From: Anaerolineaceae bacterium
GTDB taxonomy: Bacteria > Chloroflexota > Anaerolineae > Anaerolineales > Anaerolineaceae
DNA: 64,000 bases
NCBI GenBank assembly: GCA_002702705.1
Contig: PABH01000059.1
Span: 1 to 64,000 of the forward strand
Direction of reading: 5' to 3'
The translations under genes were made by a program, and so were the position numbers. The notes below the pieces were generated by a model, which made no database searches, was not told the origin of the DNA, and worked only from the letters and a program-made list of their open reading frames with translations. Below are positions 3,317 to 60,262 of this stretch, one piece after another. How positions within the stretch are numbered: the stretch's first letter is position 1; every line of letters begins with the position of its first letter.

Positions 3317-4081
3317 ATGATGGGTCGAGAAAAACAAACAACGAAAACAATGCAGCATTTGGGTATTCAGAACAATCATTTAGCAGTTGCGTTCCCTGAA
3401 TTTGAGACAATAAAAAATCAATTTATTTACGGCGAAGTCCGCAGGCAGGGAGAATTGAATGAAAAACTGCAAATGTTGGTTGTTATCGCAGCACTAATAA
3501 CTGTTGAGGGTGAGGATTTATCGGAACAGATCAATGCTGCTTTGCAGGTAGATGTTTCCCCAATTGAACTACAAGAGGTATTTCATCAGGTAGCACCATA
3601 TATTGGTTTTGCAAAAGCAGAAAAGGGATTGTCAGTTCTAAAAAAGGTTTTTGAAACAAGAGAAATTACTTTGCCATTAGAAAAGCAGAGCACAGTCACT
3701 GATGATACACGCCTGGAAAATGGCATCAATGTCCAAAAGACCTTATTTGGGCCTGTGATTGATAATATGAGAGCTAACGCACCGGAAGATCAAAGATTTT
3801 TACAAGATTATCTATCTGCTTACTGCTTTGGTGATACATATACAAGAGGAGGATTAGATATCAAGACACGCGAATTATTGACTTTCGTATGCATCATTTC
3901 GTTAGGTTGTTGCGAAAATCAAGCAAAAGCTCATGTTGGTGGAAATATGACGATTGGAAACGGTCCATCTGAGCTTCTGGCCGCCGTAACTCAGTGTTTA
4001 CCCTATATCGGATTTCCAAAAACATTGAATGCAGTTTCGGCTATTAATGAAATCATGAAAATGAAAAATAAAACAGAATGA
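3317..4081 (+). CDS. Carboxymuconolactone decarboxylase family protein (two CMD repeats)
   Basis: The protein has about 254 residues with two CMD/AhpD-like helical repeats. The second repeat carries RELLTFVCIISLGCCENQAK followed by HVGGNMTIG. The catalytic AhpD CxxC pair is not present in its usual form: the second repeat has CCENQAKAH. Peroxidase activity is therefore doubtful, and a decarboxylase- or isomerase-like role is equally possible. I place the start at 3317 (ATGATG) rather than at the upstream in-frame ATG at 3293, because GGAG at 3308-3311 is well spaced only for 3317/3320. It sits in the MerR-linked operon, followed 7 bp later by the cupin gene. Confidence 0.85.
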   Translation: MMGREKQTTKTMQHLGIQNNHLAVAFPEFETIKNQFIYGEVRRQGELNEKLQMLVVIAALITVEGEDLSEQINAALQVDVSPIELQEVFHQVAPYIGFAKAEKGLSVLKKVFETREITLPLEKQSTVTDDTRLENGINVQKTLFGPVIDNMRANAPEDQRFLQDYLSAYCFGDTYTRGGLDIKTRELLTFVCIISLGCCENQAKAHVGGNMTIGNGPSELLAAVTQCLPYIGFPKTLNAVSAINEIMKMKNKTE

Positions 4082-4088
4082 GGAAAAA

Positions 4089-4523
4089 ATGAAGTACAAG
4101 AATAAAAAAGATTTTGAGAATGCAAACATGTTTGGAACTGGTGTACCAAATGAAATGTTCGACAAATATTTCACAGGAGATTCTTTTCTAAATATATTAA
4201 CAAAACCGGGAGAAAGTCCTGTTTTTTTGGCAAACGTAACATTTGAACCGGGATGCCGCAATCATTGGCACATTCACCATGCAGCAAAGGGAGGCGGGCA
4301 AATCCTGATCTGCACAGCTGGAGAAGGATGGTACCAGCAAGAAGGAAAAGAAGCGGTCAGTTTACAAGAGGGATCTATTGTCTACATTCCTACAGGAATA
4401 AAACATTGGCATGGTGCAAAAACAGACAGCTGGTTTAGCCATATTTCTGCTGAAATTCCCGGTGAAGAAAAAAATAATGAGTGGCTTGAACCGGTTTCTG
4501 ATGAGTTTTATAACAAACTATAA
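4089..4523 (+). CDS. Cupin-domain protein
   Basis: A 144-residue single-domain cupin. Motif 1 is HWHIHHAAKGGGQILICTAG (metal ligands His-x-His, then Gln in place of the usual Glu region) and motif 2 is GSIVYIPTGIKHWHGA with the third His. Such small cupins with CMD partners are common in electrophile-response operons; some act as isomerases or dioxygenases. The gene is 7 bp after the CMD gene with AGGAAAAA as its ribosome site, so it is co-transcribed. It is cytoplasmic, and the substrate is unknown. Confidence 0.88.
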   Translation: MKYKNKKDFENANMFGTGVPNEMFDKYFTGDSFLNILTKPGESPVFLANVTFEPGCRNHWHIHHAAKGGGQILICTAGEGWYQQEGKEAVSLQEGSIVYIPTGIKHWHGAKTDSWFSHISAEIPGEEKNNEWLEPVSDEFYNKL

Positions 4524-4616
4524 ACATGATGAAGGTTTCAATCAAACCCATTGAGCGAATTGGAATTGTGTGGTTATTAAAAACCAAAAGAAAAACGATT
4601 TTTTAAAGGAGTAAAA

Positions 4617-6115: not shown

Positions 6116-6973
6116 TTGGAAATTTATGTTGGGCTAGATATTGGCGGCACAAAGTTTATGGCCGCTAGTGCAAATAAAGAAGGTAAAATTCTTCACCGCG
6201 TTCGGGCTGATACTTCTACTAGTCTGGAAAAGGATCTTGCTCAATTACAGACCATGATCACGGAAGTCAGCCGGGGTAAAACCATCTCAGGCATTGGCGC
6301 TGCCATCGGTGGTCCCCTGGACTGGAAAATGGGTATTGTTTCTCCCCTGCACCAGCCAGCATGGCGTAATGTTCCTTTAAAAGAGATCATGGAAACTAAA
6401 TGGAACTGTCCATTTTTTGTAGATGTCGATACCAACGTAGCCGCCTTGGGAGAGTATTCCCGCTCCAACCTGAATGTTCACAAATTTGTTTACCTGACCC
6501 TCAGCACCGGTATGGGTGGTGCATTGATCATTGATGGAAAAGTAGACCGCGGCCTAAAGGGTGCCCATCCTGAAATCGGTCATCAATCCATTCCCTACCG
6601 CTGCCAATATCCCCAGCGAGTTTATTGTGAATGCGGTCTATCGGATTGTTTAGAAGGGTTAATCTCTGGCAATGCTATTCGCCGTATTTACCAAAAACCA
6701 GCCGAACAATTATTACCGGATGAATGGGAGGAAGTAGCTTACAATCTAGGACAAGGGCTGCGTAACATCGCCACCCTTTATGCGCCTGATCTCATTCACA
6801 TCGGCGGTGGTGTCGCGATAGGTGGTGGAGAAAAATTGATCCAAAAAACAGCGTTGGTTATGCAAGACCATTTACGTCTTGTCCCGCCGCCACAAGTTCG
6901 TTTGAGCACCCTCGGTTACGACACCGCTTTAATCGGTGCTTTAACCATCGCAAAAGAAGGGCTTAGCCAGTAA
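6116..6973 (+). CDS. ROK-family sugar kinase (copy 1)
   Basis: A 285-residue ROK kinase of glucokinase, fructokinase or N-acetylhexosamine kinase type, which phosphorylates a free hexose in the cytoplasm. The phosphate-binding motif GLDIGGTKFMAAS is at the N-terminus, the catalytic-Asp region is FVDVDTNVAALGE, the second ATP motif is LTLSTGMGGA, and the Zn-binding ROK signature CECGLSDCLE is present. The start is a TTG at 6116 after GAGGTAAGG; the paralogue at 50273 has an ATG in the same position and the same leader (GAGGTAAG). The two proteins have the same length, align without gaps and are roughly four-fifths identical by eye. The sugar is not determinable. Confidence 0.9.
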   Translation: MEIYVGLDIGGTKFMAASANKEGKILHRVRADTSTSLEKDLAQLQTMITEVSRGKTISGIGAAIGGPLDWKMGIVSPLHQPAWRNVPLKEIMETKWNCPFFVDVDTNVAALGEYSRSNLNVHKFVYLTLSTGMGGALIIDGKVDRGLKGAHPEIGHQSIPYRCQYPQRVYCECGLSDCLEGLISGNAIRRIYQKPAEQLLPDEWEEVAYNLGQGLRNIATLYAPDLIHIGGGVAIGGGEKLIQKTALVMQDHLRLVPPPQVRLSTLGYDTALIGALTIAKEGLSQ

Positions 6974-7090
6974 ATTTTCTCAGATAAGGTTTTATATAAA
7001 CCTGTGTGGTTCATCTCGAAGGTCTACGACCATTTTATAAGGAAGAGAAAGTGAAAAAAACAGGTCCTGTTCGATTTCGATTTACTCTGG

Positions 7091-7178
7091 TATCGAGAAG
7101 ATTTCGAACCTTCTGCCCAGACGATAAGTCATAATCCCAAATCCCTAGTTTTTATTCGGCGGACATTGTAAACACCTT
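7091..7178 (-). repeat. Degenerate tRNA-3'-half repeat, copy A
   Basis: Within the 347-bp gap between the ROK kinase and the SDR gene, the sequence matches copy B (8571-8755). A T-arm-like block GATTTCGAACCTTCTG, then ATAAGTCATAATCCCAAATCC, then a block TTCGGCGGAC..TGTAAACACC that corresponds to TTCAGCGAGT..TGTAAACC of the 14.1-kb copy. It is clearly degraded. The rest of the gap shows no gene. Confidence 0.5.
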
Positions 7179-8536: not shown

Positions 8537-8561
8537 AAAAAACCGTCCTATTCAGGACGGT
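8537..8561 (-). terminator. Rho-independent terminator reading leftward
   Basis: A perfect 8-bp stem ACCGTCCT / AGGACGGT at 8542-8561 with an ATTC loop is followed, in the minus-strand direction, by six T. It sits directly downstream of the tRNA-3'-half of copy B, closing the transcription unit that would start at the promoter at 8723-8751. Confidence 0.88.
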
Positions 8562-8570
8562 CTCTATCAG

Positions 8571-8755
8571 TAGCGGGGAGAGGATTCGAACCTCTGACCT
8601 CCGGGTTATGAGTCAAAATCCTAAATCCGTGCTGTTTGTGCGGCGGGCTCTGCAAATCAGCCAACCTGACGATCTCTGGTTCACGCTTGCCGGGCACACT
8701 ACGGTAGTTAATCGATGTTCGTATAGTAGCTAATTTATGTGGGTTCGTCAAGTAC
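8571..8755 (-). repeat. tRNA-3'-half repeat, copy B (best preserved tRNA part)
   Basis: Read on the minus strand, 8612-8571 is a correct 3' half of a tRNA with anticodon CAT: anticodon loop CTCATAA, stem strand CCCGG, variable AGGTC, T arm AGAGG-TTCGAAT-CCTCT, acceptor strand CCCCGCT and discriminator A. The matching 5' half is absent; the sequence 5' of the anticodon loop (8613 upward) cannot pair. It is instead the flank shared with the copies at 14.1 and 53.0 kb, including CTGGTTCACGCTTGCCGG and ACACTACGGTAGTTAATC. The break at the anticodon loop is where tyrosine integrases commonly recombine, so this looks like an attachment-site remnant. An open frame spans the repeat but is an artefact of the tRNA sequence. 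Confidence 0.72.
8723..8751 (-). promoter_or_regulatory. Sigma-70-like promoter inside repeat copy B
   Basis: On the minus strand TTGACG (8751-8746) and TACTAT (8728-8723) are separated by exactly 17 bp. Transcription would run through the repeat and the tRNA half into the terminator at 8537-8561, giving an RNA of roughly 180 nt. Copy E (53.1 kb) keeps a weaker version (TTGATG with an AT-rich block 17 bp downstream) and copy C keeps TTGACG. Confidence 0.55.
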
Positions 8756-14112: not shown

Positions 14113-14504
14113 AGTAGCGGGAAGAGGATTCGATACCTACAGGCACTTATTTACGACCTCCGGGGTTATTACAAGTCAAAAACCTGAATTCGTACCGTTT
14201 GTTCAGCGAGTTCTGTAAACCTTCTGCAGAGTTAATGTCAGCCAGCCTTACGATCTCTGGTTTACGCTTACCTGACACGCTGCAGTAGCTAATCAAAGTC
14301 CGTTTAGGAACTTTTTTTATGTGGGTTCGTCAAGTCTTTTTTTATTTACTAACGCAATAATTTTCAATACGATTTGGCCAAATTAATATTGTCCTGGGAA
14401 ATACCCCACCTAGATAATGGTAAAAAGTTTCTTGATTTCCGTTAAAGTTCCCCATTAGTTAGTGTTTCACAATCTTTATAATCCTGCACCAGGTAAAGGA
14501 TTAA
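14113..14504 (-). repeat. tRNA-half/att-like repeat, copy C (long form)
   Basis: The repeat starts with TAGCGGGAAGAGGATTCGAT (a decayed T arm and acceptor) and GACCTCCGGGGTTATTACAA (a decayed anticodon arm). It continues through GTTCAGCGAGTTCTGTAAACC, AGCCAGCCTTACGATCTCTGG and GGGTTCGTCAAGTCTTTTTT to CACAATCTTTATAATCCTGC and AGGTAAAGGAT. Each of these blocks recurs in the same order and orientation in copy E at 52940-53338. It lies between the MalT-like regulator and the left end of the glycan cluster, in a 515-bp gap with no gene. (Two blocks are quoted with one base trimmed from the reading length where needed.). Confidence 0.72.
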
Positions 14505-14568
14505 TATATTTGGAAGTTCATTTAGGACCTACCCACTACGATGAACCAGGTATTTTCAGTTAATAAGT

Positions 14569-50272: not shown

Positions 50273-51130
50273 ATGTCATGCTACATTGGACTTGATATCG
50301 GTGGGACCAAATTTATGGTTGCCAGCACAGATCTGAATGGCAAAATCTTGCGCCGTGTTCGTTTGGATACATCCTCCAGCTTGGAAAAAGATTTGGATCA
50401 CTTGCACGCTATGATTGGTGAGGTCAGCGAAGGCCAACCAATCGCCGGCATTGGGGCTGCCATCGGTGGCCCGTTGGATTGGAAACACGGCATAGTTTCC
50501 CCACTTCACCAACCCGCCTGGCGTGATGTTCCTTTAAAACACATCATGGAAACTCGTTGGAATTGTCCATTTTTTGTCGATGTAGATACCAACGTGGCTG
50601 CCTTTGGTGAGTATTATCTTTCAAACCTGAATGTCCACAAATTTGTCTACCTGACGCTCAGCACTGGTATGGGAGGCGGCATGTTGGTTGATGGAAAATT
50701 AGACCGCGGACTCCACGGAGCACATCCTGAGATGGGACATCAATCCATCGCCTACCGCTGCCAATATCCACACCGCTTGCAATGTGAGTGTGGTGTCCCG
50801 GACTGCTTGGAAGCACTAATCTCCGGCAACGGCATTCGCCGCATTTACCAAAAGCCAGCCGAACAGTTATCTGCTGAGGAGTGGGATGAAGTGGCCTATA
50901 ATCTTGGTCAGGGGCTGCGTAATATAGCCACCCTCTACGCCCCGGATCTTATTCATATTGGCGGCGGGGTAGCCGTTGGCGGTGGAGAAAAACTGATACA
51001 AGCAGCGGCATTGACCATGCGAGATCATTTGCGCCTTGTACCTCCTCCTGAAGTTCGCTTGAGTACATTTGGTTATGATACCGCTCTGTGGGGTGCCCTT
51101 ACCCTCGCAAAACAAGGAATAAGTGATTAA
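50273..51130 (+). CDS. ROK-family sugar kinase (copy 2)
   Basis: 285 residues with GLDIGGTKFMVAS, FVDVDTNVAAFGE, LTLSTGMGGG and the Zn motif CECGVPDCLE, so a functional ROK hexokinase-type enzyme. It is a gap-free paralogue of the kinase at 6116, including an identical GAGGTAAG leader. It is followed 6 bp later by GH32, so a role as a fructokinase or glucokinase for sucrose- or fructan-type sugars is the simplest inference. Confidence 0.92.
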   Translation: MSCYIGLDIGGTKFMVASTDLNGKILRRVRLDTSSSLEKDLDHLHAMIGEVSEGQPIAGIGAAIGGPLDWKHGIVSPLHQPAWRDVPLKHIMETRWNCPFFVDVDTNVAAFGEYYLSNLNVHKFVYLTLSTGMGGGMLVDGKLDRGLHGAHPEMGHQSIAYRCQYPHRLQCECGVPDCLEALISGNGIRRIYQKPAEQLSAEEWDEVAYNLGQGLRNIATLYAPDLIHIGGGVAVGGGEKLIQAAALTMRDHLRLVPPPEVRLSTFGYDTALWGALTLAKQGISD

Positions 51131-52522: not shown

Positions 52523-52635
52523 TACAAGGAATTGATAACCCTTCCAACCAAATTCAATAATAAATGAATTACAAATACGAGTAGGTTTTTTTTATAAAAA
52601 AACAGAATCCCATAGTTTTTGGGCCTCGATCATTT

Positions 52636-52692
52636 GCGGGAGTAGATATGAATCAGTAACCATTAGGTTATGAGTGCAAATCTGAGATCCAT
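52636..52692 (-). repeat. Weak tRNA-half trace, copy D
   Basis: The order GCGGGAGTAGATATGAATC, then TTAGGTTATGAGT and CAAATCTGAGATCC, follows copy B (GCGGG, AGAGGATTCGAA, GGGTTATGAGT, CAAAATCCTAAATCC) with many substitutions. The flank is not preserved. It may be a very old copy or a chance match. Confidence 0.3.
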
Positions 52693-52939
52693 GAGGATTC
52701 TATTACGTTTTCATCGTCCAATTAATTGTGTTTATGAAATTGCAGTACAAAAATTTGAACGCGATATAAGGGGAACCTGAAAAAAACCTATCCATATCGA
52801 TATACTTTCGATTTAATATCTACCGATATTGATAGATTGTAATCAATTTTAGACAGTGTTATTCTTGATCTAAATTAATAGATCAAGGGATGAACGTATG
52901 TTAAAACAAAAAACGACCATATATGGACACTTTAGAAAT

Positions 52940-53338
52940 AGCAGCGGGAGCAGGGTTCGAACCACTCCCCTAAGGGGACTATGTTACATCCTGGGTATCC
53001 GTCAAAATCCTGAATTCGTACCGTTGGTGCACCGAGTTCTGTAAACCTTGCCAGGGACCTGCAGGACTAACGCCAGCCAGCCTGACAATCTCTGGTTCAT
53101 GCGTGCCAGGCACACTACGGTAGTTAATCAATATTCGTAATGTAGATATTCATATGGGTTCATCAAGTCTTTTTTTGATTTGCTAACGCAATATTTTCAT
53201 TAAGATTGAGACATACCGATTTTATCCTGGGAGGTGCGCCCCCCTGATATTAATAAAAAGTTGTTTGATTTCTGTTAAAGTTCACCATTAGCGGGTGTTT
53301 CACAATCTTTATAATCCTGCATCAGGTAAAGGATCAAT
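52940..53338 (-). repeat. tRNA-half/att-like repeat, copy E (long form)
   Basis: It begins with GCGGGAGCAGGGTTCGAACC (decayed acceptor and T arm), then GTCAAAATCCTGAATTCGTA, GAGTTCTGTAAACC, ACACTACGGTAGTTAATC, TCATCAAGTCTTTTTTT and CACAATCTTTATAATCCTGC. All are shared in order with copy C at 14113-14504, about 38.5 kb to the left. It fills the gap between GH32 and the ParA-containing module; the rest of that 875-bp gap (52523-52940) shows no gene, only A/T-rich sequence with the palindrome ATATCGATAT at 52794-52803. Confidence 0.75.
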
Positions 53339-53409
53339 TCGATTTCCTTAACCCTCTATTTGCATACCATTTTGCAGTTCTTTTTAGAAACTTCGGAGTG
53401 TCATTAAAA

Positions 53410-54000
53410 ATGTCAGATAAAAAATTTGATTATTTGTTACCTCAACCAAAAGAAAACCCGATTGAGCATAGGGGTTATGTTTGGAAAGTTATTGGGGATC
53501 CAACTCGTAATAACGATGATCCTGGCATATTCTTTGGAAGATTATTTCGAATGATTGATATTCGACTCAACCGGGACGAAAAATCAACCTGGCCAGACGG
53601 AATTGTATTTGAAAATGTGACTTCAGGTTGCCAGCTCACTTTTCAAAACGGCGTATTGATGGATCTAACAAATTCCAAAGTAATCCAAAAAAAGCCAAGA
53701 GTTCGTGATCGTGGACATAGATCAAAACGAGTGGAAGAGGCAAATGATAGAAAAAACGTCAACAATGTTGATCCTATCCCACCTAATGCCCAACTTCGGC
53801 GTTTTGTACTAGTGCGGTGTGAAGATATAAACGGCATATCAGGCACAGGAGAAGTTGCAGAGGGAACTGTTTTTAGAAGTGGGATGGCCGTCATCAACTG
53901 GCTAAGAGAACCATTTGCCATCGGCGTTTATCAGACTATGGAGGATGTCATCCTGGTTCATGGACACGAAGGACGTACACAAATTCAATTTATTGATTAG
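53410..54000 (+). CDS. Conserved hypothetical protein, first gene of the integrative module
   Basis: 196 residues, no signal peptide. The last 60 residues (ISGTGEVAEGTVFRSGMAV, NWLREPFAIGVYQTMEDV and HGHEGRTQI) match a small beta-rich domain that I know from phage and actinobacterial hypothetical proteins (pattern GxGxVAEGxxFxxGxxxxxWL, then HGHxGxTxI). The N-terminal 130 residues are unfamiliar and charged. The ATG at 53410 is used; GGAG lies 12 bases upstream, a bit far, and a GTG at 53398 is too close. It sits 9 bp before parA. Confidence 0.6.
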   Translation: MSDKKFDYLLPQPKENPIEHRGYVWKVIGDPTRNNDDPGIFFGRLFRMIDIRLNRDEKSTWPDGIVFENVTSGCQLTFQNGVLMDLTNSKVIQKKPRVRDRGHRSKRVEEANDRKNVNNVDPIPPNAQLRRFVLVRCEDINGISGTGEVAEGTVFRSGMAVINWLREPFAIGVYQTMEDVILVHGHEGRTQIQFID

Positions 54001-54009
54001 GAGGATCAG

Positions 54010-54780
54010 ATGACCACTAAAGTGATTACCGTTTCAAATCAAAAAGGCGGTGTTGGAAAAACGACCACTGCTGTAAACCTGTCACACGCTCTGACATTAA
54101 GGGATAAACATGTTTTATTGATTGACCTGGATCCTCAAGGGCAATGTGCTACGAAATTAGGAATGGATAGTCAGATGGGGACTTATTACTTTCTGACCAC
54201 CCAGCCAGGATCTTCAAGTGAAATCACATTTGTTCGTCAATGGATTCGAGATACTGGCAGAGATTACCTCCATCTACTCCCTGGAAATTCAATGACAGCA
54301 GCAGCGCAAATGATGTTGAGCGTTCAAGACCAGCCTATCTCTTATATAAAAGAATTGTTGAAGATCTTCTCTAAGGATCGTTTGGATTATATCATTTTTG
54401 ACACCTCACCTTCTGTTGGTGGTTTACAGGAACGTGCGATCTGGGCTGCTGATTTGGTCATCATTCCAACCGCGACCGAATTTGCTTCTTTGGATTCATT
54501 GTCAAAAACGGTCACTACGATCCATACCTTGCGAGATAAGAAAAACTGGAAAGGGGGGCTACTTGGTATCCTACCAACCTTTTTTGATGGCACCAACGAA
54601 TCCCGCGACTCTATTCTGGATCTACAGGCAACCTTTAAAGAAAAAGTATTATCGCCGATTCATCGGGCGACCGTGTTGCGTGAATGCTGGTCAGAAGCAA
54701 AGACGATTTTTGAGTACGCATCAGGGACCCGGGCAGCTGAGGAGTATAGGTCCTTGGCAAGTCTAGTTTTAAAGTATTAG
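54010..54780 (+). CDS. parA: ParA-family partition ATPase
   Basis: 256 residues. Deviant Walker A KGGVGKTT at residues 12-19 with both signature lysines, LLIDLDPQGQCATKLG (Walker A') and YIIFDTSPSVGG (Walker B). Lacking the long N-terminal HTH of P1-type ParA, it is of the short type Ib/Soj class that works with a small DNA-binding partner. The downstream ribbon-helix-helix protein is that partner by position. Ribosome site TAGGAGGA. It should segregate the excised or replicating form of the element. Confidence 0.93.
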   Translation: MTTKVITVSNQKGGVGKTTTAVNLSHALTLRDKHVLLIDLDPQGQCATKLGMDSQMGTYYFLTTQPGSSSEITFVRQWIRDTGRDYLHLLPGNSMTAAAQMMLSVQDQPISYIKELLKIFSKDRLDYIIFDTSPSVGGLQERAIWAADLVIIPTATEFASLDSLSKTVTTIHTLRDKKNWKGGLLGILPTFFDGTNESRDSILDLQATFKEKVLSPIHRATVLRECWSEAKTIFEYASGTRAAEEYRSLASLVLKY

Positions 54781-54788
54781 GGGGCGGT

Positions 54789-55493
54789 ATGGCCAGACGT
54801 GATGCTTTTACAGATTTACGCAATTCCCTTCCTACGGAAAGTGTTAAAAGGCATCAAGAACTGAATTCCTTGATGCACATGCAACAGCCACTGGACTTAA
54901 TTCCCACCGCAAACCGTAAGAAAAAACGGTCTCGGAACTGGGAAAAAGTTCACAGGCAGGAAACCGTAACTTATCGAGGAATACCTCGCAAAGTTGTGGA
55001 TCAAGTCGTGGATATTGCTCAAAACCTTATGGTGCCGAGGGATGAAGTTGTCAGAGCATTTCTTGAAAATGGAGTGAGACTTTATCGATCTGGAGACCTC
55101 AATCTTTTTGCCTATCCTAAGGCTCAACGCATGACATTATTTCCGGAAACGGATCAAGGTAATACGATTTCTTCTCTATCCAAAAATAAAAACCGGGGCT
55201 GGTTATCGGAAGCATTTCCTGTTCCTGAAAAGAAACCAAGCACTGTCAGGAGAAAAAAAACTAAAGAGGAATTGGATGTCATCCCACAATGGGAAATCAG
55301 AGTGACCTTCCGTATTCCAATTGAACTGAAAGATGAGGTTCGAACGATCGCTACAGATCATACCGTACCGGTTGGGGAATTGGTCTGGTTCTTTGTTAAT
55401 GAAGGATTGAAAGCCTATCAAATCGGGACCTTACTCCTTCAACCATTACCCAAGACGATCGGAAAAACTTTATTTGAAAGAGGTTCTGAATGA
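54789..55493 (+). CDS. Tandem ribbon-helix-helix-like DNA-binding protein (ParB-like partner)
   Basis: 234 residues with an internal duplication. Residues 60-110 (VTYRGIPRKVVDQVVDIAQN, then VVRAFLENGVRLYRSGDL) and 171-221 (VTFRIPIELKDEVRTIATDH, then LVWFFVNEGLKAYQIGTL) align with each other along their whole length: a strand, then two helices, the ribbon-helix-helix pattern. The link between them is basic. Position directly after parA, 8 bp downstream, fits a centromere-binding partner like ParG/Omega but with two motifs in one chain. The family itself is not one I recognise. Confidence 0.7.
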   Translation: MARRDAFTDLRNSLPTESVKRHQELNSLMHMQQPLDLIPTANRKKKRSRNWEKVHRQETVTYRGIPRKVVDQVVDIAQNLMVPRDEVVRAFLENGVRLYRSGDLNLFAYPKAQRMTLFPETDQGNTISSLSKNKNRGWLSEAFPVPEKKPSTVRRKKTKEELDVIPQWEIRVTFRIPIELKDEVRTIATDHTVPVGELVWFFVNEGLKAYQIGTLLLQPLPKTIGKTLFERGSE

Positions 55494-55545
55494 TCGTTCT
55501 GATTTCTCAAAAAATCAACCGATATTTTTATAAGTCGAAAACCCC

Positions 55546-55608
55546 GTCTGCGTCCATGTTGACGTGCCGCAGACATGCTGTTGACACGACGCAGACGTTG
55601 ACGCAGAC
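55546..55608. repeat. Iteron-like cluster, candidate centromere or origin
   Basis: GACGCAGAC occurs at 55588-55596 and 55600-55608, a one-mismatch copy GCCGCAGAC at 55566-55574 and an inverted copy GTCTGCGTC at 55546-55554. TTGAC precedes three of the sites (55559, 55581, 55598). It lies between the RHH gene and the initiator gene, in a 262-bp non-coding gap, which is where partition sites and origins usually lie. An 84-codon open frame there is not convincing. Confidence 0.6.
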
Positions 55609-55755
55609 GATACCGCTGACGTTTGATGAACAAAAAGACAGAATAAAGTCATTTCCTGGGAGCAATGGAATAATTCCTGTCATTTTAGAAAAAGCTGTTA
55701 TTTCGCTATTTTTGTGTTTTTGGTTCCGGAGATCTAGCCAATAGGGAATTCTTTT

Positions 55756-57936
55756 ATGAATGCAGTCGTTGAATTTTCACCAGAAAAAGCCTGGCAAGCA
55801 GCCATAACCTATCTAAAAATGGAGATGTCACGGGTAGATTTTAATACCTGGGTTAAACCAATCCAATTGGTGGAATATTCCAATGACAATTTTGTGATTG
55901 GCTGCATCAATATATATGGTCAGAATTGGCTAGAAAATCGTTTGAGCATGACCTTGCAAAAGTTCTTATCCGGTGTATTAAACAGGGAAGTAAAAATTCG
56001 TTTTGTTATTTATGACCAGGGAGTTGATGATGAGGATGGCATCTGCCAAGAAGAAAAAGATAATTCTAAGAATAACGAGGAAAATCCTATCGACTTGGAT
56101 ATCCACTATAGTTCTATCCGTAATTTCCTTCTGGAACCCGAGCGAATCGTTCGATTACCGGTTTATTATTTTCGATGGATGCCTTATGTTGGTTCACGAA
56201 TCATTTTCCTGGTGATGGCAATGTGGCAGGAATATTTTCTTGCAAGTGAAGGAAAAAAGCGAAAAGGAAGTTGCAAAGTTTCCGTTCGGGCTGAGCGGAT
56301 TTGTCAGTGGGCTGGAATGAGCCGTGCTCAGTTTTTCCGTTTGCTTCAACCTGGAAGCAAACTGGGATGGTTTGCTCGGAAAATTGAAACTGATTATGAA
56401 ATTGATAAACGTTCAGGAAGGACGAAAAAATCCTCAAACAAATATGAAATTTACGAATCACCTCTCACACCTGGAGATGCTGAAGACTTAAGTGCTTTTT
56501 TGGTTTCTCACGGGATAAAAGAAACACCGGAATCCGCACTTCAGATCGCTGTTAGTGCAAACCCCAAAGAAATCTTGCAGTATCCAGTTCAGTGTCCTCC
56601 GGAGGATTTCGAAAAAATGCTTCCAAGCTATCAGACAGTTCAGAGTGTTATCAAAAAATTGGTAGGTCATCGGCTTGATGGAGAACTTGAGAACCTCGCT
56701 AATCAGCTTGCCAACCGATTAACAGGGCCAGGAGATTTTATACTGGTTAGTTGGTATTTTCTTAAAAATTGGTTACCCGTGTTGGGATCAGATGCAGCCA
56801 TGTTTGTTCTGATATTACGGAATCTATGCTACTTCAACGATGCGATTGGCGAAATAAGGGATGAGGTCTGGATGGATGGCGGTTATGAATCGATTGCTAT
56901 TCGTTTAGGGATCAAAAACCCGCGAATAGTCGCAAACTGGTTGCCAGCCCGGATAGACCGGGGAAAACGCAAAGAAAAACTTAGTGAACGCACGAACAAA
57001 GAGATCTCACGCCGGCAACATCTTCAAGATTTGTTAGGCCTGTTTGTTCAACGTACTGACCACCGGCTCAATGCTGAGGGCAGTTATGGCTGGAAATTCA
57101 AAGTACAACGAATCGACCCACTGACACCACAACATCAGGCAATCCAACAAGCTGCTTCAACTCTTTTGATGAAATCAGAAGACCAATTTGTTCTGGATGA
57201 GCTTGATAACTGGATTAGTAAATTAAGTAATGATTGCGCACAGCGTCCCCGAGCGCAGCGAGAGGGATTGGCGTCTGCCCGCCTTTGGCGTGAGACTATC
57301 AACCCAGAGGCAATGATTGTTTCGAGACTCTCGGATTTATCCAATGATTGTTCAGATACTCTCAAGGGCATCCTCAATGATTGTCTTGAGACACTCGACC
57401 TACAAGCCAAAGATTGTTTTGAGACCCTTTTAAAGATTCTAAAAAGCTTTAAAGATTCCAAAAAAGTTAAAGATTCCTCAACAACCCAAGATGCATCTTT
57501 TTCGCAAAACGAATCATCAAGCCGGGCGGTTGCGGTAGTGACTGATTCAAATGGCAATTGGTCATTGGATAAATTATTAGCCCGTGCCGACAGGAAAAAT
57601 CGATCTGTTCTTGTAGAGCAAGAAAATACTGCAATACCCTTTGTGTCCTGGATCATTTATGGCGTGTCTCAAAGCACTATCCAGAATCCGTACAGTCTGG
57701 CCATTGCCAAGCTTAAAGAGAATCCTGGGGTTGGTGCCGGCGGAGCGAGTGAGCGTCTGGCTGCTATGTCGCCACGAGAATTTGCTATCCTCATCGAACA
57801 GTCATTTTCGTTTTATGGATCTTCGAATAAAGATTGGCAGATGCTTTTTAGTGTAGCTAATAACGATCGCATCCAACTTCTGGTTGACTTGCTGGGATTA
57901 GTTTTGAATACCAAGGAGGATCATTGGCAGATATGA
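55756..57936 (+). CDS. Replication initiator-like protein with DnaA domain I
   Basis: 726 residues. Residues 1-87 are a DnaA N-terminal domain (WQAAITYLKMEMSRVDFNTW, then ENRLSMTLQKFL), known to bind helicase loaders. There is no AAA+ domain. Residues about 115-240 contain RLPVYYFRWMPYVGSRIIFL and a basic wHTH-like segment VRAERICQWAGMSRAQFFRL, as in plasmid-type initiators. The middle and C-terminal parts are unfamiliar helical regions, with an 11-residue repeat near 520-560 (NDCSDTLKGIL, NDCLETLDLQA, KDCFETLLKIL). Downstream is an SSB-like gene. I infer a replication initiator for the element; this architecture is not one I can name. Confidence 0.72.
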   Translation: MNAVVEFSPEKAWQAAITYLKMEMSRVDFNTWVKPIQLVEYSNDNFVIGCINIYGQNWLENRLSMTLQKFLSGVLNREVKIRFVIYDQGVDDEDGICQEEKDNSKNNEENPIDLDIHYSSIRNFLLEPERIVRLPVYYFRWMPYVGSRIIFLVMAMWQEYFLASEGKKRKGSCKVSVRAERICQWAGMSRAQFFRLLQPGSKLGWFARKIETDYEIDKRSGRTKKSSNKYEIYESPLTPGDAEDLSAFLVSHGIKETPESALQIAVSANPKEILQYPVQCPPEDFEKMLPSYQTVQSVIKKLVGHRLDGELENLANQLANRLTGPGDFILVSWYFLKNWLPVLGSDAAMFVLILRNLCYFNDAIGEIRDEVWMDGGYESIAIRLGIKNPRIVANWLPARIDRGKRKEKLSERTNKEISRRQHLQDLLGLFVQRTDHRLNAEGSYGWKFKVQRIDPLTPQHQAIQQAASTLLMKSEDQFVLDELDNWISKLSNDCAQRPRAQREGLASARLWRETINPEAMIVSRLSDLSNDCSDTLKGILNDCLETLDLQAKDCFETLLKILKSFKDSKKVKDSSTTQDASFSQNESSSRAVAVVTDSNGNWSLDKLLARADRKNRSVLVEQENTAIPFVSWIIYGVSQSTIQNPYSLAIAKLKENPGVGAGGASERLAAMSPREFAILIEQSFSFYGSSNKDWQMLFSVANNDRIQLLVDLLGLVLNTKEDHWQI
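57312..57429 (+). repeat. Four DNA repeats inside the initiator gene
   Basis: Four copies of a 21-bp unit beginning AATGATTGT (third and fourth slightly altered) with GAGAC or GATAC in the middle and CTC or CTT at the end start at 57312, 57343, 57376 and 57409. The first is in a different reading frame (MIVSRLS) from the others (NDCxxTL), so conservation is at DNA level. A half copy, AATGATTGC, lies at 57229. Confidence 0.65.
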
Positions 57937-58003
57937 AATGAAATAATTTTGAAGACGTTTTATTTAGGTTCAATAATCATTTATTAAAAAGGAGAAATAA
58001 ATT

Positions 58004-58447
58004 ATGGCACAAGGCAATCTAACCTGGCATCGTGGAGACATCACTGGTGATATCTACTTTGATTATTTGCATCCATCGAATCATGACCCAATTCCTTATG
58101 TTCGTTTATATCTGATGATCGACGGCAGCCCTGAATCTAAACCGGTAAAGGGCTTACGGGTATTGGTTTATGGCACATTGGCAGAATTAGTTTATGGACA
58201 TGTCCGGAAAGGAAGTCGGATTGGCGTAGAAGGGCATATTCAATTGCGTTACCGTCCAAATACCACAACTCCGGTGTTTGAAGTCGTTGCTGAAAGAATC
58301 GAATTTATCCGCAACATCGATTACGAACGTGGCAAACAGGTAATCACTGAGTTGAAACAAAGAGGAAAACGAAATTCTGCTGCATCTGACTTGGAAATCA
58401 TCACTCAGATTCTAGAAGCAGGAGACTCCAGTAATGGTAGTGAATAA
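58004..58447 (+). CDS. SSB-like single-stranded DNA-binding protein
   Basis: 147 residues. An OB-fold-like core with FDYLHPSNHDPIPYVRLYLM, VKGLRVLVYGTLAELVYGHV and RKGSRIGVEGHIQLRYRPN is followed by FEVVAERIEFI, the usual ending of SSB domains. The acidic C-terminal tip of chromosomal SSB (DDDIPF type) is lacking; the tail ends in acidic and Ser residues. It probably coats ssDNA during transfer or replication of the element. It follows the initiator gene and has a strong ribosome site AAAGGAG. Confidence 0.8.
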   Translation: MAQGNLTWHRGDITGDIYFDYLHPSNHDPIPYVRLYLMIDGSPESKPVKGLRVLVYGTLAELVYGHVRKGSRIGVEGHIQLRYRPNTTTPVFEVVAERIEFIRNIDYERGKQVITELKQRGKRNSAASDLEIITQILEAGDSSNGSE

Positions 58448-58976
58448 TTTTGATGGACCAGAAATTCAGATCTCTGAAGAAAAACTGCAAAAATTTGGTT
58501 GGATCCTTTTAGGACTTGCTGTGATTTTCACAATAATTGGCGCCCTTGTTTCCCCTATCGATGATCTTGGAAAACCAATTCTCTTATTGCCGGAGGTTAA
58601 GGCTGTGGAGGATTACCGGAAATCTGCTCAGTCATGGATTTCGGAGTTGACTATTTTAGATAGTGAGATCGCGCGTGTGATCTCAACTGAACAACAGGGC
58701 GATTTATTTTCGCAGTCGAGATCTGCACAACAGACTCTCCAGCACGCTGTTGAGATCGCCCAGGAAGTGGATCGCACGAAGGTTCCTCCTATCGGTATGG
58801 GGTTGCATGAGCAAATGCTGTCGACAACGCTGAGTTATCTTGAAGCTGCTCGCAGCGCTTTGCAGTGGGTTAGCGCACCAGAGCAGGAAAACCAAGACCT
58901 GGCTATTCAGATATTGGAAGTCGCGCGTGAGATGAAATCAGAATTGGAGAAAAACAAGTGGTTGGTCTCACTTTAG
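58434..58976 (+). CDS. Single-pass membrane protein of unknown function
   Basis: 180 residues. One hydrophobic segment at about 21-41 (FGWILLGLAVIFTIIGALVS) is followed by a helical, Gln/Glu-rich domain (residues 58-175) that may form coiled coils. It overlaps the SSB gene by 14 bp with its own AGGAGA site and overlaps the next gene. I do not recognise a family. Confidence 0.6.
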   Translation: MVVNNFDGPEIQISEEKLQKFGWILLGLAVIFTIIGALVSPIDDLGKPILLLPEVKAVEDYRKSAQSWISELTILDSEIARVISTEQQGDLFSQSRSAQQTLQHAVEIAQEVDRTKVPPIGMGLHEQMLSTTLSYLEAARSALQWVSAPEQENQDLAIQILEVAREMKSELEKNKWLVSL

Positions 58977-60262
58977 AAGAATTCCAACGGAACCAGTCAA
59001 CTCGGATTTCCAGAGACATTATCGGGCAGAGTGAGGAGCACGAGCAAAAAATGCAGGCCAATGCTCAGAAATTATGGGAAAATGCCCATAAAAAGCTTGT
59101 CGCACTATTAAGGCTTCTGGATCAGGATTACGATGAATCCTGCGAAAAGGCAAACCGACCACTAGACTCATTTAGTGATGATGATCTGGCTTATCTAATT
59201 CATGTTCGGTTGCGGGCTATGCAGGAGGTCGAATCGAGAAGAAAATTGCCTGATGAAACCAATGAACTTGAACTTGGTTTGAAAGAGCTCAGCCAGAAAT
59301 ATACCGATCTGGAAAATGAGCTTTTTACCGCGAAAGAATTGATAAAGAACTTACAAGTTGAGAAATCAGCCCTGGAAGCGCACCTATCTGCAATTCGCCA
59401 AGTCCAGAAGGAAATATCGTCTCAAAATAATCCCACACAAAAACCGGATTTGGATAATTTGGAGACATTAATACCTGTTCCTGATTGGATAAAGACTTGG
59501 AGAGGTACGAAGGTATTCGAGAAAACATCAACCGCTATCTTGGTGATGGGAGAGATGGGACTTGCATTACGCCCATCCATTATAAAAATGATGGCCAGAT
59601 GCTTGTCTCTTGCGGTCACAAACAAAAATCTGGATGAAGCATTGAATTGGTTGATGAATCCCGATGAAGAATCTTGTCTTGAATTAATTGAGCAAATCGA
59701 GGGAATATCAGCGCAGGGATCAAGTTCGGGAGGAAATCAGCCGGCGGTACTGCGATTGACCAAAGAGGGGGAAATTGCCTATCAAGTATTAACTGGTAGT
59801 CTCCCGAAGGAAAATGAATATGATAAATTGCTTAGACACCATTCCTCACCTGAACATACTATTTTAAACATTCAGGTAACCGAAGTATTAAATGAAGAAG
59901 GTTATCTGATTCAAGGACAGGCTAAACCCATATATTTATCAAATGGCGAAACTTACATTCCGGATATTATCGCTGTAGATCCTAAAACCGGTGAAATTGT
60001 TTTCATCGAGGTAGAACGGGATGTGAATAAAGATTATGGAACCAGAAAAATGAGGTGGATGAAGTTTTTCGAAGCCTCTAACGGAAACTTGTATGTGTTT
60101 TGCGACAACCTGAACTGCCAGCGAGCTATTCAGGGAGAAATCAATCTTGCTTTAAGTGGATTAAATTACAACTCATTCCTGACGAATCTACACGGATTAC
60201 GAAATGGGAAGCGAGCGGGAAAAGATGGTAGCATCTGGTTTTCTCAAAGAAGAGGTAATTAA
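58958..60262 (+). CDS. Coiled-coil protein with C-terminal nuclease-like domain
   Basis: 434 residues, GTG start after GGAG. Residues about 20-160 form long helices and a coiled coil (LKELSQKYTDLENELFTAKE). A wHTH-like middle follows (PAVLRLTKEGEIAYQVLTGS). Residues 290-400 read YIPDIIAVDPKTGEIVFIEV, ERDVNKDYGTRKMRWMKFFE and YVFCDN, compatible with a PD-(D/E)xK fold (Asp, Glu-x-Glu, Lys). The wHTH-plus-nuclease order recalls replication-relaxation proteins of mobile elements. Function could be DNA processing in transfer or a nuclease in defence. It overlaps the membrane-protein gene by 19 bp. Confidence 0.6.
   Translation: MVGLTLEEFQRNQSTRISRDIIGQSEEHEQKMQANAQKLWENAHKKLVALLRLLDQDYDESCEKANRPLDSFSDDDLAYLIHVRLRAMQEVESRRKLPDETNELELGLKELSQKYTDLENELFTAKELIKNLQVEKSALEAHLSAIRQVQKEISSQNNPTQKPDLDNLETLIPVPDWIKTWRGTKVFEKTSTAILVMGEMGLALRPSIIKMMARCLSLAVTNKNLDEALNWLMNPDEESCLELIEQIEGISAQGSSSGGNQPAVLRLTKEGEIAYQVLTGSLPKENEYDKLLRHHSSPEHTILNIQVTEVLNEEGYLIQGQAKPIYLSNGETYIPDIIAVDPKTGEIVFIEVERDVNKDYGTRKMRWMKFFEASNGNLYVFCDNLNCQRAIQGEINLALSGLNYNSFLTNLHGLRNGKRAGKDGSIWFSQRRGN

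Follow-up and report, generated by a model that had tools for sequence, protein, structure and literature searches.

The window analysed here is a stretch of 64,000 nucleotides from a contig of an Anaerolineaceae bacterium (PABH01000059.1). On its minus strand, from 8751 to 8537, a promoter, a repeat flank, the 3' half of a tRNA and a perfect terminator follow one another, an arrangement that had been proposed in the initial annotation and that we confirm. The features of this locus, hereafter copy B, are the following:

8746-8751, minus strand: -35 box TTGACG of an outward-facing promoter, in at least 34 of 46 class-1 copies
8723-8728, minus strand: -10 box TACTAT after a 17-bp spacer, in at least 34 of 46 class-1 copies
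8613-8722, minus strand: conserved class-1 leader of the element end, spanning the 110 nt that separate the -10 box and the tRNA half
8604-8625, minus strand: putative att motif TTTAGG-N7-CTCATAACC, with one mismatch to the consensus (TTCAGG in most copies)
8606-8612, minus strand: CTCATAA, anticodon loop of tRNA-Met(CAT), onset of the tRNA homology and presumed crossover
8571-8612, minus strand: 3' half of tRNA-Met(CAT), CTCATAACCCGGAGGTCAGAGGTTCGAATCCTCTCCCCGCTA, a displaced fragment with T arm AGAGG/CCTCT
8537-8561, minus strand: intrinsic terminator recognised by eye, an 8-bp perfect stem ACCGTCCT-GAAT-AGGACGGT (8561-8542) followed by five T (8541-8537)

The tRNA half runs from the anticodon loop to the discriminator base, and its 5' half is missing. 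The RNA would probably start near 8716 and, counted from about there, its length agrees with the roughly 180 nt predicted earlier. The promoter match is by itself at chance level (one found, with a mean of 1.0 in shuffles) and would not be enough; we place the unit above chance because it is conserved. The terminator was not flagged by the same scan (0 found), though its 8-bp stem and T run are plain by eye, perhaps because G-T pairs, which the scan allows, take up the T tract. Neither ARAGORN nor Rfam at the gathering score called a tRNA anywhere in the window, as expected from the presence of only half a tRNA at B; weak Rfam matches below the gathering score were taken as chance. When the att motif was scanned for, none of 100 shuffles reached two matches, and this motif is likely the core site of an integrase.

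Copy B is the best preserved of five ends in the window, all of which share one direction. The others, and the backbone beside the last of them, are:

7090-7176, minus strand: copy A, a strongly decayed element end with tRNA half
14113-14333, minus strand: copy C, a decayed class-1 end in which the T arm and the -10 box are broken
52631-52700, minus strand: copy D, a decayed tRNA half closing a Z-type segment after E
52941-53166, minus strand: copy E, a class-1 end adjoining a ParA module
53398-60262, plus strand: backbone by end E, namely a 200-aa protein, ParA, a 234-aa and an 84-aa protein, a DnaA_N-domain protein, SSB, a 180-aa and a 434-aa protein

The relatedness of B to copies C and E, already noticed before our analysis, is real, and the stretch upstream of C (14360-14505) matches that of E (79%). 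The leader of B shares 91% identity with the common class-1 type, those of C and E 72% and 65% over the aligned part, and these values indicate that B is the orphan end of a separate event rather than a recent copy of E or C. The genes between the ends are ordinary metabolic cargo (mannosidases, GH32, transporters, SDR and a MalT-type regulator). No integrase was found after any of the ends in the window or the rest of the contig, nor were integrase remnants detected after B, where the tblastn matches, as near C, fall in the tRNA half and terminator. A pair of ROK-family genes (6116-6973 and 50273-51130; 71% identical over 300 nt) lies near ends A and E/D. The Z segment, present in L056 (1023-1440) and decayed in the window (52,640-52,940), is bounded by a tRNA-Met 3' half on one side and another, decayed half on the other; its query matches 25 of the 147 family genomes, at several places in some. 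Of the 25 copies listed, nine were measured, seven being 386-389 bp long and the others 274 and 427 bp, and this segment could be a miniature integrase-less island.

Searches of the own genome and 60 relatives recovered nearly the whole 231-bp unit at 86-88% identity in three genomes (G002, G027 and G006) and the leader with the tRNA half at 88-91% in seven further ones, so that ten other genomes, from several genera, contain the unit beyond the tRNA part alone (86-91% identity). The repeat flank of which the initial annotation had spoken would be the conserved end of an integrating element. A leader query without the tRNA half matched 35 of the 147 family genomes (E <= 0.001; the count includes the own genome, and some matches are partial). 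Across the order, 22 of 301 genomes matched, 19 of which belong to the same family. By genome name, 32 of 37 stretches fall under Chloroflexi or Anaerolineae-type names, including Levilinea saccharolytica, Flexilinea flocculi and Leptolinea sp., and five come from MAGs labelled Nitrosomonas, Bacteroidota, Bacillota, Clostridiales and Pelotomaculum, labels that likely reflect mis-binning. A phage or plasmid origin was considered and rejected: neither viral_contigs nor the phage records hold an exact match of the pattern, and the matches at the ten places listed from 39 plasmid records span just 23-25% of the query, corresponding to the tRNA half.

Two classes of leader precede such tRNA halves. 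A promoter of the same shape is present in 38 of 46 class-1 copies (37 with the 17-bp spacer) and in 17 of 19 class-2 copies, the class-1 copies being deduplicated only for identity over 120 nt and therefore not independent. The distance from CTTGAC to TAACC is 149 and 150 nt in the two classes, whose sequences are otherwise different, and the pattern CA(G/T)G-N7-CTCRTAACC recurs in both (class 1, 38/46, 37 of them with N7; class 2, 16/19, all with N7), copy B having TAGG at the CA(G/T)G position. In the class-2 leader (e.g., L104, 293-447), we also observed a second CTCGTAACC located 100 bp before the att core, as well as a near-complement of this core (CCTCCGG/CCGGAGG). Among the 69 diverged pairs (those of 136 with a gene identity below 90%), the leader identity is 86.3%, compared with 73.9% for the adjacent intergenic DNA and 77.1% for the gene of the 200-aa protein, and the leader exceeds this gene in 67 of the 69. 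The conservation of the class-1 leader would seem to exceed the apparent need of a promoter and an att motif, and arm sites, a function as RNA or repeated exchange could explain this excess.

In the aligned copies, the sequence from CTCATAACCCGGAGGTC onward (some terminators included) recurs downstream in intact tRNA-Met genes, and the sequence upstream of it alternates among the tRNA 5' half, the class-1 leader, the class-2 leader and others. The intact genes are called by ARAGORN in all six cases given and by Rfam in three of three. We found a tyrosine integrase (PF00589) after the tRNA half at 21 of the 67 distinct places for which 1 kb or more of downstream sequence exists: after five of six intact tRNAs, among them the tRNA-Met of the own genome on contig C71, 9 of 38 class-1 ends, 5 of 18 class-2 ends and two of five others. 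The class-2 count includes L028, assigned by a loose motif although its leader is a diverged class-1 relative, and becomes 5/17 without it. In 12 of the 14 examples listed (18 loci), the ATG of int is at +89 after the tRNA end; elsewhere the distance ranges from 80 to 95 nt.

The tRNA alleles add to these observations. In G090, one rare T arm, ATACG/CGTGT, is shared by the intact tRNA and by the ends of class 1 and class 2 (3/3 halves found). The 3' fragments match the target tRNA, have a fixed breakpoint and, in G090 and G036, lie in direct orientation. The picture would be the standard one in which island ends are marked by displaced tRNA fragments, here with a crossover in the anticodon loop; the target tRNA-Met(CAT) we take, from features of its sequence, to be of the initiator type. 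The T arm of copy B (AGAGG/CCTCT) does not match that of the own intact tRNA on contig C71 (GTAGG/CCTGC) and, therefore, B would have come with, or been made from, another allele. Other peculiarities were observed in these regions. A second, convergent tyrosine recombinase (open frames of 381-388 aa) lies by the type-X integrase in several genomes (L107, 6135-7277; L109, about 4038-4592). Short palindromic inserts of roughly 18-40 nt occur at a few spots in the leader and in the tRNA half, where they lie in the anticodon loop, before the T stem or in the T loop (L021, L022, L040, L043, L047, L049, L059, L088, L090 and L111). One end of the L041 contig (minus strand, about 14-230) carries head-to-tail repeats, spaced about 96 bp apart, of a tRNA half with its terminator.

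The order of the ends was also followed along contigs, the next end being defined by the two leader queries, so that other ends may lie between. In G090, we found in one direction the tRNA, int X, 77 kb, a class-1 end, int Y, 30 kb and a class-2 end, int X and int Y being 60-61% identical. Int Y (L012 type) is followed 22-39 kb on by a class-2 end in all seven contigs holding both (G036, G090, G001, G002, G018, G111 and G067, the last with a partial int). After int X, the next end is of class 1 in three of four contigs (G090, G067 and G110), at a distance of 77-125 kb. The exception is G169, whose type-X int is decayed, with one stop, and has a class-2 end some 5 kb further along. By sequence, an outward promoter is conserved at the int-distal end, as in ICEs with a circle promoter.

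Beside some class-1 leaders, the module u200 - ParA - u234 - u84 - DnaA_N - SSB - u180 - u434 reads away from the leader, which lies 228-236 bp from the gene of the 200-aa protein in 17 loci (230 bp in E). Among distinct places having 800 bp or more of upstream sequence, u200 or ParA is located within 1.5 kb at 16 of 42 class-1 places, E included, and at none of 17 class-2 places. A parA module at the far end is also a feature of ICEclc-family elements. Past the module, the contig of the window encodes a T2SSE-type ATPase, RcpC/CpaB and an AAA_10 match below its cut-off, and then ends. The class-1 leader would thus represent the int-distal end of an ICE-like element and, as in B, would also occur without the genes of that element. 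Indeed, 26 of the 42 class-1 places, including B and C, lack a u200 or ParA gene within 1.5 kb, and a class-1 leader therefore need not mark the end of that ICE.

The region upstream of int gives a possible role to the promoter. At one leader-int junction (L012), a consensus scan found the leader promoter as the only sigma-70-like site before int, and at one intact tRNA-int locus (L109), it was the tRNA promoter. Among cultured members, Levilinea saccharolytica KIBI-1 (L034) and Flexilinea flocculi TC1 (L066) have an intact junction of leader and int. Between the tRNA end and int, there is a terminator and then a hairpin holding the ribosome-binding site and the start codon. In an alignment of this 5' UTR (14 stretches, reduced to 13 related rows by dropping L085), 8 of 23 pairs changed on both sides, and the covariation score was 0.311 compared with 0.179 in shuffles, none of 500 shuffles being as high; the number of further pair types was not above shuffles (14 compared with 15.6). 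In L012 (1692-1810) and L109 (2746-2865), the start codon lies inside a long covarying hairpin just past the tRNA terminator, and the first int codons resemble the arm of that terminator. It is possible that this hairpin serves as a translational gate.

We consider it probable, from these sequence comparisons, that copy B is an attR-type end of an ICE-like island that uses a tyrosine integrase to enter a tRNA-Met(CAT) gene at its anticodon loop, and an orphan end, since no integrase follows it. In the integrated element, the host tRNA promoter would transcribe int through the terminator and the hairpin hiding its start codon. Excision and circularisation would place the outward promoter of the leader ahead of that tRNA half, its terminator and int; in the circle, this promoter would drive int and so enable re-integration. 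While the element is integrated, the same promoter, then at the distal end, would yield nothing more than a by-product, a terminated RNA about 180 nt long. Copy B, without an integrase after it or a ParA module before it, would be a leftover or hitch-hiking end in the tandem array A-E. Its anatomy, conservation and neighbours are as observed above; its transcription, the circle junction and the function of its promoter we infer, the promoter being taken as a circle promoter left at the distal end because the int region matches what was measured in ICEKp1. Several observations speak against this explanation: 29 of the 38 class-1 copies with 1 kb downstream are not followed by an integrase, which is expected of distal ends but also of decay, and to these are added the order in G169, the T-arm mismatch between B and its own tRNA and the class-1 places devoid of the ParA module (26/42). 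The read-through that int transcription would require at the terminator, the excess conservation of the class-1 leader and the one covariation measure of the int 5' UTR that is not raised count against it as well.

The initial annotation had left open an uncharacterised structured RNA with a tRNA-like 3' end and had named as a check covarying pairs outside the T arm. Such an RNA, acting in trans, appears very unlikely to us. Its conservation would fit, as the leader surpasses the neighbouring coding sequence in nearly all diverged pairs, and the two class-2 RNAs tested fold better than shuffles (z -2.8 and -3.1). Nevertheless, none of the 17 RNAalifold pairs in the class-1 leaders (16 leaders, 121 columns) showed a two-sided change, and both the cells paired and the covariation score equalled the shuffled means, in an alignment whose mean column identity of 91% gives limited power. 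These 16 rows derive from 40 with a readable tRNA end, reduced to 24 by removing near-identical ones, to 23 by dropping L152 and then by dropping seven with inserts or end differences. The leader and tRNA half of B fold no better than shuffles (z 0.41), nor do two other class-1 RNAs (z 0.38 and 0.01). In class 2, none of 34 pairs covaries, in only 10 rows that are 96% identical (14 rows, 11 after removal of near-identical ones, 10 without L111), and no Rfam family reaches its gathering score. Covariation sits in the integrase 5' UTR, in contrast to the leader pairs, from which it is absent. Changes within the T arm were rejected as a sign of RNA function, since the three G090 halves share ATACG/CGTGT and a copied host tRNA allele explains them better.

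The absence of RNA covariation in either leader class would suit a leader that works purely as DNA, through integrase arm sites and directionality control, with a minor promoter and an incidental transcript. The shared CA(G/T)G-N7-CTCRTAACC at fixed spacing and the constant length of 149/150 nt point in this direction; we nevertheless judge this alternative unlikely, as two leader classes that differ elsewhere have both retained the promoter hexamers with their 17-bp spacer, and no further promoter-like site precedes int in the one junction scanned. A partial tRNA-Met duplication without any mobile element would leave half a tRNA lacking its 5' half, and several decayed copies do exist in the window. 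However, many genomes show the same anticodon-loop breakpoint with the same leader attached to it, and integrases adjoin the tRNA half in part of the places, which makes such a plain wreck extremely unlikely. The initial annotation was right that a conserved transcription unit surrounds half a tRNA. Its wrecked tRNA gene comes close but leaves out the agent, this half probably being the displaced fragment of an element that integrates in the anticodon loop. We would give a small chance to a more active role, in which B and other orphan ends are attachment sites still live and armed with a promoter. Each would offer the next element a target (CTCATAA in a tRNA half) and a promoter, so that integrase-less metabolic cargo accretes in tandem as on an integron-like platform, with the unusually conserved leader of about 107 nt, as RNA or DNA, as controller.

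On present evidence, copy B is a real, conserved feature, explained by a system of known type whose anatomy is its own, and does not define a new RNA class. Reading B as the orphan end of an ICE-like island explains a conserved "half-tRNA RNA" that would otherwise be open to annotation as a new ncRNA, and makes the leader with its tRNA half a sequence tag for mapping island ends in Anaerolineaceae; a loose end that lends itself to testing is how strongly the leader is conserved. If true, this reading would extend to Chloroflexota the state-dependent int promoter design of ICEKp1, ICEEc1 and ICEclc. Literature searches for such elements in Chloroflexota listed no description of them, as judged from titles and the first lines of abstracts.

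Among known systems, Islander treats the displaced 3' tRNA fragment as the mark of the far end, records tandem arrays and includes an anticodon-centred crossover class, with 2083 islands (PMC4383910). It requires an integrase for each tandem member, in contrast to the segments between ends in our window, which have none. For ICEclc, Pcirc is listed as the promoter of the intB13 transcript (table in PMC2892462) and described as constitutive and outward-facing (PMC6561031). The target of ICEclc is tRNA-Gly and its host belongs to a different phylum, the likeness drawn here being one of design.

The closest parallel is ICEKp1, for which the switch of the int promoter was shown by experiment, from the host tRNA promoter when integrated to a promoter at the 3' end when excised, a similar switch being reported for ICEEc1 and ICEclc from reporter assays (PMC13023037). 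In the account of the same source, the int 5' UTR of ICEKp1 holds attenuating stem-loops that act as a potential terminator. Here too, int lies beside the tRNA in the same direction and would be served by the tRNA promoter if integrated and by the far-end promoter if circular, stem-loops occupy the int 5' UTR and the displaced tRNA terminator is found at the far end. In contrast to ICEKp1, our elements are from Chloroflexota and known from sequence alone, their target is tRNA-Met(CAT) and the crossover falls in the anticodon loop, so that the far end carries 42 nt of the tRNA. Moreover, the conserved leader puts 110 nt between the -10 box and the tRNA half, whereas the start in ICEKp1 is placed 15 bp from the junction (PMC13023037).
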